Of a DNA stretch of 35,833 nt, positions 7,679 to 11,256 are shown one piece after another. Source of the stretch: Clostridia bacterium. GTDB lineage: Bacteria; Bacillota; Sulfobacillia; DUSP01. The notes under the pieces were generated by a model. It made no database searches. It was given only the letters and a program-made list of their open reading frames with translations, and was not told where the DNA came from. The stretch covers positions 1 through 35,833 of the forward strand of contig DUSP01000124.1 of NCBI GenBank assembly GCA_012842575.1, given 5' to 3'. Position 1 is the stretch's first letter, and every line of letters starts with the position of its first letter. The translations under genes were made by a program, and so were the position numbers.

Positions 7679-8275
7679 GTGCCACGGACTTTCATGAAGG
7701 CTAACATAGCGTCTCTTTTGGGAAACGTGGGGGCCACCGCGTCCTTTCACTTTTCCGAAAACATGGACTCCATCATCGCCGATAAAGGAGAGGCGCGCCT
7801 TGCGAGGCCCGTTCTCGTGGACGTTTCCCTCCTCAACACCGGGAACCGACTCCTCGCCGACTTCGATGTGCGTGCCGATGTCGTCGCGCGTTGCAGTAGG
7901 TGCCTTTCCGAGTTCACCTTCCCCATCCGACTCAAATTCAAAGAAGAGTACAAAAAGGCCCCGGAAACCGCCCTCAAGACCCAGCGCCTCGATGGGTCAG
8001 AGAAACCGGCAGGAACCGGAGAGGCTGAAGACGAAGCGGGAAATGAGATCTTCGCCTTTTACGGGGACAACATAGACTTCAAGGAGGCCGTCCGGCAAAA
8101 CTTGATTTTGGCCTTACCCATGAAGTTCGTCTGCAGGGAAGCGTGCAGGGGCCTATGCCCAGTTTGCGGGAAAAACTTAAACGAGGGCGAGTGCGGCTGC
8201 TCAAGAGAAGAAGACTCGAGATGGTCGCCCCTCCGCGACGTACTTGATAACTTGTACCGTCAGTCCAAGTCCTAG
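7679..8275 (+). CDS. yceD: DUF177 / YceD family protein
   Basis: CSRCLSEFTFPIRLKFKEEY, and CREACRGLCPVCGKNLNEGECGC; position upstream of rpmF (separated by the IS element). Confidence 0.88.
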   Translation: MPRTFMKANIASLLGNVGATASFHFSENMDSIIADKGEARLARPVLVDVSLLNTGNRLLADFDVRADVVARCSRCLSEFTFPIRLKFKEEYKKAPETALKTQRLDGSEKPAGTGEAEDEAGNEIFAFYGDNIDFKEAVRQNLILALPMKFVCREACRGLCPVCGKNLNEGECGCSREEDSRWSPLRDVLDNLYRQSKS

Positions 8276-8355: not shown

Positions 8356-8447
8356 CGGTGATCCCAGAGCGATTTTAGCGGTAAGAAGCATCTACTTGCA
8401 GGTCAATAAATATTAACAGAACATAACAAAACAGTTACCATGAAACC

Positions 8448-9104
8448 ATGGAACTATTAACCATCAGCAAAGCGGCAAAAAAGTTGGGCGTTCACCCGAA
8501 CAGTCTGCGCAATTGGGAGAAGCGGGGTTTAATCAAACCCGTCCGTCTACCCGGAGGCCAGCGCCGGTACTCTATGAACGAACTCAACAGGCTCCTGCAG
8601 TCTGGTCAGTTGACTGACGGGCAGGAAGCAGTCGTGCTTTACGCCCGGGTATCTACTAAGAAGCAGGCCGATGCAGGCAACCTGGACCGGCAGATGGACC
8701 GGCTGCGCCAATATGCCCAGGATCACAACTTTACCATCAAAGCGGAATTCATGGATGTGGCCAGCGGCTTGAACCAAAAACGCCGGGGGTTAACAAATGT
8801 CCTCAAGCTGGCCGAACAGGGCGAGTACAAAAAACTGTTCATCGAATATCCCGACCGGTTGGCCCGCTTCGGTTATGCGTACATTGAACGGCACCTGAAA
8901 TACTGCGGCGTGGAAATAATCGCCATCGCGGAAAAAGAACCGGCAGACGCCCAATCGGAACTGGTGCGGGATCTGCTGTCCATCGTCACATCCTTTTCAG
9001 CCCGGCTGTATGGGGCCAGAGGCGCCAAAAAAGTCAGGCAGGGGTTTCGGGAACTGATCGCAGGAGTGGAGCCGGATGAAAAAGCCGAAGAAGAAACCGA
9101 TTAA
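8448..9104 (+). CDS. tnpA: IS607-family serine recombinase/transposase TnpA
   Basis: N-terminal MerR-like HTH (LTISKAAKKLGVHPNSLRNWEKRGLIKPVRLPGGQRRYS) and serine resolvase motif LYARVSTKKQADAGNLDRQMDRLRQYA. Confidence 0.95.
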   Translation: MELLTISKAAKKLGVHPNSLRNWEKRGLIKPVRLPGGQRRYSMNELNRLLQSGQLTDGQEAVVLYARVSTKKQADAGNLDRQMDRLRQYAQDHNFTIKAEFMDVASGLNQKRRGLTNVLKLAEQGEYKKLFIEYPDRLARFGYAYIERHLKYCGVEIIAIAEKEPADAQSELVRDLLSIVTSFSARLYGARGAKKVRQGFRELIAGVEPDEKAEEETD

Positions 9105-10776
9105 CCCGGCGGACAGCATTAAATACACCGTCTGCGGCGAATTTTTCCCAGAGGTCTACCCCGCCTTGCGCTCTCAAAAGTGGAGTCGGAGAACAGAAGA
9201 CCCCCTGGACACCGAGATGCGCCTTTTTTGCTCGTGCACTCGCTGGGCATTCAACCGGCTGCTCGAAGGTCGTTCCCGCGAAGAACTCAAAAAAGAGGGC
9301 CAGGAAGTATTCGGCTTAAACTCCCGGTATTGCGACGACGCCATACTAAAGGCAAGAGAAACCATCGGTTCCCAAAGAGAACTGCTGGTCATGGAAATCG
9401 AGGAAACAGAGATTAAACTGGCCCGGGCCAAAAAGAAGCTCGGTTGGGCCGAAAAAGACCTGGTCAGGGCAATTAAAGCCGGCGACACCGTTAAAATCGA
9501 AAAAGCCAAACACATCGTCCATAGCCGTGAAGCGCGGGTCAAAAAACTGACCAATAAACTGGGGGAATTGCAAACCCACCAGAATGCCGGCACCATACCC
9601 AAAGTAGTCTTCGGCGGTCGTTCCTTATGGATGAGGGTGTGCAAAGGCAAATCCACCCGGGAAGAGTGGCGGAACGCCCGGCGGAACCGGTTATATGCCC
9701 GGGGAGACGAAACCAAGGGCGGCAACCCGAATATGAAAATAAGTTACCGCAACGGCGGATTCACCCTGTTGGTAACCATCTCCCACCTGTCCGAACAAAC
9801 CGGAGTGGACAGCAAGGGTCGGCCAATCATGACCAGAGCGCCCCGGGTGGAAGGCAAACTGTGGCTGCCGGAAAAGCACCGGCTAGAAGCGTGGGAGCTG
9901 CTGCTTTCCGGCGCACCCTACACCGTAGAATTAATCAGAGACAAAGACGGCCGGTATAGGGCGCATATCACCTTTACCGTCGCCGTACCCGGAGTACTGA
10001 CCAGTCCCAATCGTGGCTATCTGGGCATGGACACCAACCCGGACGGAGTGGCGTTAGCCAACGCAAGTTACACCGGACAGCCGGAACCCTGGCCGGAAGG
10101 TTTTACCGTACCGTACCCGAAAGCACTGCATAAATTCGCCGAAGAATTTCAGGTAACGGTGCATTCGAACGGGTTTTTGTACATCAAGATACCGGAGCTA
10201 TGCTACAGCCGGGGATACCGGCGCACTTACCTGATGGGCGTATTAGCCCAAGTGGTGGTAGGTATAGCCGAAACCCTGGGCAAACCCCTGGCGGTGGAAA
10301 AACTGGACTTCGGCAAAGACCGGCTGGACACGAATAAGAAATTCAACCGCATGGCGGCAAATTTCCCGTTTAAGAAGATAATCGAGGCCGTCATGCGCAG
10401 GGCATTCAAGGAAGGCGTGGGCGTAAAGCCGGTCTGGCCGGCGCACACGTCAACCAACGGTTATTGGAAATACATGCGGCGGTACGGGGTAATCATCCAC
10501 CATGCCGCAGCACTGGTTATCGCCCGCCGGGCGATTGGGTTCAAAGAGCGAATTACAGAAGAGTTGAGGCAAAAGGTTCAAGCCGTAAGAGAAAAGCTGA
10601 TCAAAAAGGCGAATTCCTTGCCTGGGGAAGGAAAAGGGATGACCCGAAAGGTAAAGCGGCTCTTCAAGCGGTTGGACAGAAAGATTCCCGTTCACAACGG
10701 GCTGACCCATTTCAAACAGGAATCGTTTTATTCCCTCTGGCACGACTTGAAGCAGCTCGCTTTAGCGAGTAGGTGA
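9076..10776 (+). CDS. tnpB: TnpB-family (OrfB) RNA-guided nuclease-like protein, divergent: no CxxC zinc finger, altered RuvC-III
   Basis: Overlaps tnpA by 29 nt; RuvC-I GMDTNPDGVALA, RuvC-II VEKLDFGKDR, C-terminal VIIHHAAALVIARRAIGF. Confidence 0.88.
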   Translation: MKKPKKKPINPADSIKYTVCGEFFPEVYPALRSQKWSRRTEDPLDTEMRLFCSCTRWAFNRLLEGRSREELKKEGQEVFGLNSRYCDDAILKARETIGSQRELLVMEIEETEIKLARAKKKLGWAEKDLVRAIKAGDTVKIEKAKHIVHSREARVKKLTNKLGELQTHQNAGTIPKVVFGGRSLWMRVCKGKSTREEWRNARRNRLYARGDETKGGNPNMKISYRNGGFTLLVTISHLSEQTGVDSKGRPIMTRAPRVEGKLWLPEKHRLEAWELLLSGAPYTVELIRDKDGRYRAHITFTVAVPGVLTSPNRGYLGMDTNPDGVALANASYTGQPEPWPEGFTVPYPKALHKFAEEFQVTVHSNGFLYIKIPELCYSRGYRRTYLMGVLAQVVVGIAETLGKPLAVEKLDFGKDRLDTNKKFNRMAANFPFKKIIEAVMRRAFKEGVGVKPVWPAHTSTNGYWKYMRRYGVIIHHAAALVIARRAIGFKERITEELRQKVQAVREKLIKKANSLPGEGKGMTRKVKRLFKRLDRKIPVHNGLTHFKQESFYSLWHDLKQLALASR

Positions 10777-11010
10777 CCCCGTTAGCCGGCATCGGACAAA
10801 CCGGTAGGCCGCATCCAACAGATCGCGGGAGGCAAAGCCTGAAAGCGCTTTCGCTTGACGGTCAACGCAGGACGGAAACCCTCGTGGTTTCCCAAATGGC
10901 CGCGCCCTGCGTCCGCCAAGCGCCGTTCTCCCGTCCGGGTGGGACTCCCGGGGCCGAGGTCTCTCTGTCACCCCAGGAAATATTTCCACGGAGGTGCAAA
11001 GCCTGGTCAT
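10777..11010 (+). ncRNA. Candidate omega-RNA/reRNA and right-end region of the IS607-type element
   Basis: GC-rich noncoding segment 3' of tnpB with hairpins GGAAACC-CTCGT-GGTTTCC nested in ACGCAGG...CCTGCGT, palindromes GAAAGCGCTTTC and GGAAATATTTCC, and repeated GCAAAGCCTG; TnpB omega-RNAs are known to overlap and follow the tnpB 3' end. Confidence 0.4.
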
Positions 11011-11079
11011 AGGGAGGCCGGCTACACAAAAACTAACGCTTGTTAGGTATTGTGAGCTTTTTTGAACCAGGTAGTATCA

Positions 11080-11256
11080 GTGGCAGTTCCCAAGAAAAAG
11101 ATGTCGAAATCCAGGCGCGATATGAGGAAGTCTCAGTGGAAGCTGGTGGCGCCTAAGATCGTCACCTGTCCGCGATGTCATCAGCCAAAACTGCCTCATA
11201 GGGTGTGCCCCAACTGCGGCTACTACAGAAACCGCGAGGTGGTCAAGGCGGAGTGA
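11080..11256 (+). CDS. rpmF: 50S ribosomal protein L32
   Basis: (GTG)[51 protein letters not shown] at 11080 is the likely start. Confidence 0.95.

Follow-up and report, generated by a model that had tools for sequence, protein, structure and literature searches.

The window analysed here, a stretch of 35,833 nucleotides from a Clostridia bacterium (assembly GCA_012842575.1, contig DUSP01000124.1), carries an IS607-type transposable element whose TnpB-family protein lacks the zinc ribbon and has a histidine, H475, where the third catalytic residue of the RuvC site is expected, and it raises the question of whether such a protein can still act as an RNA-guided nuclease. TnpB is the ancestor of CRISPR-Cas12, and cleavage by Cas12, TnpB and Fanzor is explained by a two-metal RuvC site composed of Asp, Glu and Asp (D-E-D). 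The original prediction had recognised RuvC-I in GMDTNPDG and RuvC-II in VEKLDFG, reported the CxxC pairs and the RuvC-III Asp as missing, noted a pairing with TnpA, and proposed a variant active site (His or a displaced acid) or a nuclease-dead protein. Both motifs, both absences and the pairing were borne out; of the options offered, the His variant is the best supported, the displaced acid found no support and the nuclease-dead protein is less likely. The reading that we favour, with some reservation, is that the protein is an RNA-guided nuclease with a D-E-H RuvC site, active but probably attenuated. The features of the protein are as follows:

9076 to 10776, + strand: TnpB-family protein, zinc-less, D-E-H type, 566 amino acids (aa) (single open frame; NCBIfam, AlphaFold2 and fold matches)
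9322 to 9588, + strand: predicted coiled-coil hairpin insertion in the REC region, aa 83-171 (AlphaFold2 helices; gap in the D-type profile alignment)
10030 to 10038, + strand: RuvC-I, GMDTNPDG, with D319 (catalytic Asp; codon 10030-10032) and N321 (100% in 54 His-type rows)
10297 to 10299, + strand: RuvC-II, VEKLDFG, with E408 at the canonical position (100% in 54 His-type rows)
10447 to 10485, + strand: predicted helix TSxIGxxKYxxxYG, aa 458-470, in place of the CxxC...CxxC zinc ribbon (alignment, AlphaFold2, absence of PF07282)
10498 to 10500, + strand: H475 (CAC), His at the RuvC-III catalytic position (family alignment, AlphaFold2, RuvC register)

The stretch HTSTNGYWKYMRRYGVIIHHAAALVIARRAIGF contained zero Cys and zero Asp, and it was the first of its two adjacent His, H475, that lined up with the catalytic Asp; for comparison, ISDra2 TnpB has the triad D191/E278/D361 and a CCCC zinc finger (PMC10097598). 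The published TnpB motif, D-X(125,275)-[TS][TS]-X-X-[C4 zinc finger]-X(5,50)-RD (PMC3627910), was recovered in part: the [TS][TS] pair was present as T458-S459, with 138 residues between D319 and it (125-275 required), the place of the C4 zinc finger was a region without Cys and without PF07282, and His475 stood in place of the final Asp of RD. As neither a C4 zinc finger nor the final Asp turned up when looked for, the protein is labelled here as a TnpB-family relative and not as a canonical TnpB. Profile scores agreed with this label, the match to NCBIfam NF040570 (guided_TnpB; 59.3 bits, E 4e-16) falling below the curated cut-off of 100 bits, so that by this score the protein is to be taken as a relative and not as a curated member. 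TIGR01766 scored 29.7 bits (cut-off 32). A Pfam scan of the 9076-10776 frame gave zero matches, PF07282 (OrfB_Zn_ribbon) included, whereas PF07282 did match the canonical TnpBs of relatives (3e-17, 7e-22), and a phmmer search with the single window protein against PDB sequences gave no match.

The structure of the window protein was predicted with AlphaFold2 from 34 diverse sequences (mean predicted local distance difference test score (pLDDT) 82.9, predicted template modelling score 0.56); a first AlphaFold model based on 9 close homologs was discarded (pLDDT 64 overall, <50 at 454-497, the RuvC-III region). The retained model showed a RuvC fold with D319 on beta1 (315-321), E408 at the end of a strand (405-408) and H475 at the start of the last RuvC helix (474-487), while the REC insertion formed two helices (83-135 and 138-171) with pLDDT >90. 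In ISDra2 TnpB the place of helix 458-470, between beta5 and alpha4, is occupied by the zinc-finger TNB domain (PMC10097598); according to the model, the zinc ribbon is not just stripped of its cysteines, and a conserved helix takes its place. An RNase H fold with the layout of a D-E-H site, in which Asp lies on beta1, Glu on beta4 and His where the final helix starts, is likewise predicted for this protein.

Foldseek and VIA-align comparisons of the whole chain returned Cas12f, Cas12k and Cas12m as top matches, and residues 312-491 matched RuvC resolvases (Z 11.1-12.0, root-mean-square deviation (rmsd) 2.9-3.4). The N-terminal half resembled the WED/REC lobes of Cas12f (8dzj_B, Z 13.6, 176 residues, rmsd 3.6), and ISDra2 TnpB ranked lower (8exa_A, Z 11.5), perhaps because the window protein has no zinc ribbon and carries the REC insertion. 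The aligned end points paired residue 491 with 159 of Thermus RuvC, 490 with 154 of Deinococcus RuvC and 491 with 154 of E. coli RuvC; counted back from these range ends, and assuming a gap-free last helix, H475 corresponds to His143, His139 and Asp138, respectively, each being residue three of its active site. Thermus RuvC cuts with its His at 143, and the H143D change raises its activity (PMC3834835), while in Deinococcus RuvC D7, E67, H139 and D142 are each essential, and Cas9 H983 has been named as the equivalent of the Deinococcus His (PMC9228767). The Thermus and Deinococcus enzymes, which carry His at this position and are active, show that DNA can be cut by a D-E-H site.

The original prediction had treated the window protein as one odd protein, and it proved instead to belong to a widespread family. 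Relatives were drawn from genome contigs, 101 kin genomes, 398 genomes of the phylum, plasmids, phages and viral contigs, and position 475 was counted in 73 non-redundant zinc-less rows (~20-70% identity), of which 54 had His, 18 Asp and one Ala. These relatives came from Bacillota, Actinomycetota, Pseudomonadota, Thermus, Cyanobacteria and viral contigs. The rows were sorted by residue 475, so that 100% His inside the His-type set is true by construction; D319, N321 and E408 were present in 100% of the 54 His-type rows, and all three were invariant through the 73. CxxC pairs were absent in all the gathered relatives, which had in common the motif TSxIGxxKYxxxYG (TSxWGxxHW in the Actinomycetota) and then a helix xHxAAAxxIxRR; an alignment to see whether such a motif is conserved had been suggested as a check. 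Judged from the alignments, His at 475 is a property of a large, widespread family, neither chance nor decay.

Seventeen of the Asp-type rows (Thermus plasmids and phages, several Bacillota, viral contigs) formed one clade with support 100, with Asp at 475 and the remaining active site unchanged. In an hhalign profile comparison, H475 faced the Asp of the Thermus-type relatives gap-free (416 columns, E 3.4e-80); the coiled-coil hairpin, absent from the Thermus D-type, appeared as a gap in the profile alignment. The hhalign comparison with canonical TnpB broke off at the TS motif, short of the zinc ribbon, so that the H-to-D register is based on the fold match to RuvC, on the D-type sisters and on the spacing of the motifs. 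For one outgroup sequence (L162), MAFFT was shifted by one motif (to the H of HADANAALNIL), and its third residue, Asp, was assigned by hand. The tree root was weak (long outgroup branches), and because of this no order is claimed for Asp and His within the zinc-less family.

Several of the relatives deserve mention in their own right. His-type relatives on plasmids of Rhizobium, Pseudomonas, Priestia, Streptomyces, Mycolicibacterium, Mycobacterium avium and Curtobacterium (L151-L158) extend the family to Pseudomonadota and Actinomycetota, and several of them are annotated merely as hypothetical protein. On the Ammonifex degensii plasmid pADEG01 (L045:1104-3979), a His-type TnpB-related gene lies directly 3' of iscB, with no TnpA between them. 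In the Thermus phage Lalka27a (L159:1824-3623), a 90-bp stretch with the annotation of a CRISPR repeat region, possibly a guide RNA locus, lies immediately 3' of an Asp-type zinc-less tnpB gene, and in genome G134 TnpA and TnpB are fused in one open frame of 775 aa (L070:874-3201). A 21.8-kb record labelled as a Klebsiella pneumoniae plasmid (NZ_CP061967.1, L046) encodes, 3' of an IS607 TnpA, a TnpB with 91% identity to a Bacillota copy (L072), and for these reasons the record may be misassigned or contaminated. Scans of the viral_contigs set with the Ammonifex subfamily and of the phage collection with the window protein both returned zero relatives.

The element that carries the gene, and its recombinase, are placed as follows:

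8377 to 11071, + strand: IS607-type element, ~2.7 kb (right end fixed, left end placed by alignment)
8448 to 9104, + strand: TnpA, IS607 serine recombinase with an N-terminal MerR-type helix-turn-helix (NF033518, E 1.8e-58; Pfam Resolvase, 5.2e-23)

The insertion point has yceD (7679-8275) on one side and rpmF (GTG at 11080) on the other, and the TnpA and TnpB-family frames overlap. The right end, ...TTTTTTGAACCAGG, agrees with those of 30+ relatives whose ends were set by multi-copy comparison. The left end was positioned by alignment to GGAGGT..., and the window copy reads AGCGGT (8377-8382), so that its left end looks mutated or its placement approximate only; the window copy may therefore have lost the ability to move. 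IS607 TnpA adjoins the zinc-less tnpB in Peptoclostridium, Streptomyces and Curtobacterium as it does in the window, and a second copy of the TnpB-family protein, 61% identical, is encoded in the same genome. Four genomes (G195, G352, G329 and G216) had two or three element copies each, 88-98% identical over ~2.7 kb (several at 94-98% in G195, G352 and G329), and for one insertion in G195 the site was empty in the sister genomes G457 and G438, with the GG core retained. The ratio of nonsynonymous to synonymous substitution rates (dN/dS) of tnpB was 0.11-0.29 between copies and species (simple Nei-Gojobori counts). Taken together, the dN/dS values, the multi-copy elements and the empty site indicate that tnpB is kept as a protein while the elements move: the zinc-less tnpB is under purifying selection, and the elements are still mobile.

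The right end of the element, where a putative omega-RNA would be encoded, has these features:

10958 to 10966, + strand: pseudoknot 5' strand GGTCTCTCT of the putative omega-RNA (own versus swapped partner test)
11002 to 11007, + strand: CCTGGT, possibly pairing with ACCAGG at the end of the element (both invariant)
11011 to 11019, + strand: pseudoknot 3' strand AGGGAGGCC (own versus swapped partner test)
11020 to 11059, + strand: covarying hairpin GGCTACACAA...TTGTGAGCTT (RNAalifold; own versus swapped partner test)
11064 to 11071, + strand: right end GAACCAGG with the GG crossover core (invariant in 32 copies; GG in the empty sites of sister genomes)
11072 to 11091, + strand: presumed guide segment of the omega-RNA, in the right flank and spanning the rpmF start codon (from TnpB biology)

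The last 160 nucleotides of 32 diverse copies aligned through to the invariant TTGAACCAGG, and RNAalifold placed a hairpin just 5' of the right end, with both-side changes in 7/9 pairs. For this hairpin and for the pseudoknot (GGYCYCCC/GGGRGGCC), the own partner beat the swapped one (0/2000 permutations in each case, in a control that does not remove relatedness). Both strands of CCTGGT/ACCAGG are invariant, so this pairing has no covariation behind it, and RNAalifold chose another partner (CCGGGT) over ACCAGG for CCTGGT. The right flanks, which are the presumed guides, were different in every copy, and an Rfam scan near the element gave no omega-RNA family match. The order of pseudoknot, stem and guide resembles that of the TnpB omega-RNA (PMC10097598), and the covarying right-end RNA fits a putative omega-RNA scaffold.

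Among 36 distinct right ends (window, 11071-11082, and 35 related elements), 28 lay 4-12 nucleotides 5' of the start codon of a host open frame, compared with 7/36 for a control stretch 100 nucleotides downstream, from which the GG target appears to be the Shine-Dalgarno sequence. The end of the element, ACCAGG, restores AGG at Shine-Dalgarno distance. Host frames at the right ends include rpmF in the window and pgk-like (L108), valyl-tRNA synthetase-like (L112) and rubredoxin-like (L104) frames.

For the window protein we infer RNA loading, guide use, target recognition next to GG, and cleavage. The 3' end of the tnpB transcript would fold as the omega-RNA scaffold, with the DNA immediately right of the element as guide; TnpB would load this RNA, bind sites with the GG target motif and a match to the flank, that is, alleles without the element, and cut them by means of metals held by D319, E408 and H475, after which the element would be copied back or retained. 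H475 would take over from the third Asp, either as a ligand of the metal or as the general base, like Thermus His143 or Deinococcus His139. From RuvC biochemistry one would expect slower cleavage, possibly with a preference for Mn2+ or with nicking, and an H475D protein more active than the wild type. A wider reading, which we put forward only tentatively, is that of a widespread transposon clade whose D-E-H RuvC site, with neither fourth acid nor zinc ribbon, would cut or nick by a chemistry unlike that of other TnpB and Cas12 proteins, the His possibly serving as metal ligand or base and perhaps favouring Mn2+, and whose IS607 insertion in Shine-Dalgarno sequences would give guides that match host translation starts, essential genes included.

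In Thermus RuvC (D146), Deinococcus RuvC (D142) and Cas9 (D986), a fourth acid lies three residues further on. Several points weigh against a cutting enzyme in the window. The active His-type RuvC and Cas9 have this fourth acid, and in the alignment the residue here is Ala (A478, Ala in 96% of the His-type rows), as in ordinary TnpB. Cas12m2, the only His-containing Cas12 studied, binds without cutting; its His is at RuvC-I, its Glu is lost too, and metal-mediated DNA binding has been proposed for it (PMC10442227). The invariant residues of the window family can also be retained for metal-mediated DNA binding alone. The AlphaFold2 model is without metal geometry, a T-run comes after the right-end hairpin, part of which could serve as terminator or TnpA site, and a zinc-less relative on a Calothrix plasmid (L049:2357-4093) has Ala at 475 with Asp and Glu intact, possibly an inactive or binding-only member. 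The loss of the fourth acid is the ground for considering a nuclease-dead RNA-guided binder, in which D, E and H would hold one metal and the non-target strand and which would block transcription or replication of empty alleles, and such a binder would share with Cas12m2 both the precedent of a His-containing site that does not cut and the coiled-coil REC insertion, with guides on translation starts, where a roadblock could matter. However, Asp-I and Glu-II are both replaced in Cas12m2 and both invariant here, the sisters have Asp at 475, the His at the equivalent position of RuvC is catalytic, and, in contrast to the exapted TldR, the gene still accompanies TnpA in elements that move; because D and E never drift, TnpA is kept and the elements still move, we consider this explanation unlikely, if a serious one.

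It is improbable that the right end is a TnpA-binding or terminator region only and that the protein acts without a guide on DNA structures, like a RuvC resolvase: the structural resemblance of its RuvC domain to true resolvases, the T-run and the empty Rfam scan would suit this, but the Cas12f-like WED/REC lobes of the N-terminal half and the covarying pseudoknot near the 3' end, in omega-RNA-like order, speak for RNA guidance. A displaced third acid, for example E491 in a D-E-E triad with H475 incidental, is hardly to be expected and was rejected. Only D319, E408 and E491 were acidic columns at >=85% in the His-type rows, and E491 (91%) was also found in D-type rows, which already have three acids; it lies 16 residues past H475, beyond the far end of the last helix and not at its N-terminus, and it is L, V, A or I in five Actinomycetota members that retain H475. 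No other acidic residue is conserved through the His-type proteins, which makes a displaced acid unlikely. Decay of a single pseudogene-like copy by drift, to which the departure of the window left end from the family GGAGGT might point, is very improbable and was likewise rejected, given the family-wide His and a tnpB dN/dS well below 1.

Compared with canonical TnpB, this protein, probably an active D-E-H nuclease, has the same WED/REC and RuvC layout, the RuvC-I Asp and RuvC-II Glu at canonical positions, the TS motif before the TNB region and a putative right-end RNA with a pseudoknot, and it differs in the helix that replaces the zinc ribbon, the His at RuvC-III, DxN instead of DxG in RuvC-I, the coiled-coil REC insertion and its length (566 aa versus ~400 aa). 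It shares with Deinococcus and Thermus RuvC (D-E-H-D) and with Cas9 (H983) a His at the third position of the RNase-H-fold site; those resolvases, however, are stand-alone dimeric Holliday junction enzymes with a fourth acid where the window protein has Ala, and Cas9, of a different lineage, has an HNH domain and the fourth acid D986. Cas12m2 (HDD; PMC10442227) is similar in its compactness, its non-canonical RuvC site with His and its coiled-coil REC insertion, but it has His at RuvC-I, where the window protein has Asp319, Asp at RuvC-II and a canonical Asp at RuvC-III, and it is CRISPR-associated and binds without cutting. TldR and other exapted inactive TnpBs are also TnpB descendants with altered active sites, whereas the window family keeps D319 and E408 (100%), TnpA, a right end with a putative RNA, and mobility. 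In Fanzor and pro-Fanzor the RuvC-II Glu is six residues before the zinc finger, unlike E408, which precedes the TS motif by ~50 residues (canonical spacing) in a protein with no zinc finger. Many zinc-less RefSeq relatives bear the NCBI name 'IS200/IS605 family accessory protein TnpB-related protein' (TIGR01766), a family among the best NCBIfam neighbours of the window protein, which scores below its cut-off; the name is silent on the D-to-H change. The abstract of the main TnpB/Cas12 census reportedly describes catalytic sites rearranged in multiple branches. A literature search whose reach did not extend to that census (PNAS 2023, 10.1073/pnas.2308224120) found no prior description of a D-E-H TnpB.

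Annotation with zinc-ribbon models overlooks this entire branch of TnpB. The D-E-H family and its otherwise matching D-E-D sisters amount to a natural swap experiment on the role of the third residue, and the family allows a direct test of whether the zinc ribbon or the Asp was lost first, and of the boundary between cutting and binding only. If active, it could be a source of thermophilic effectors that are compact and whose activity is altered, perhaps to nicking.
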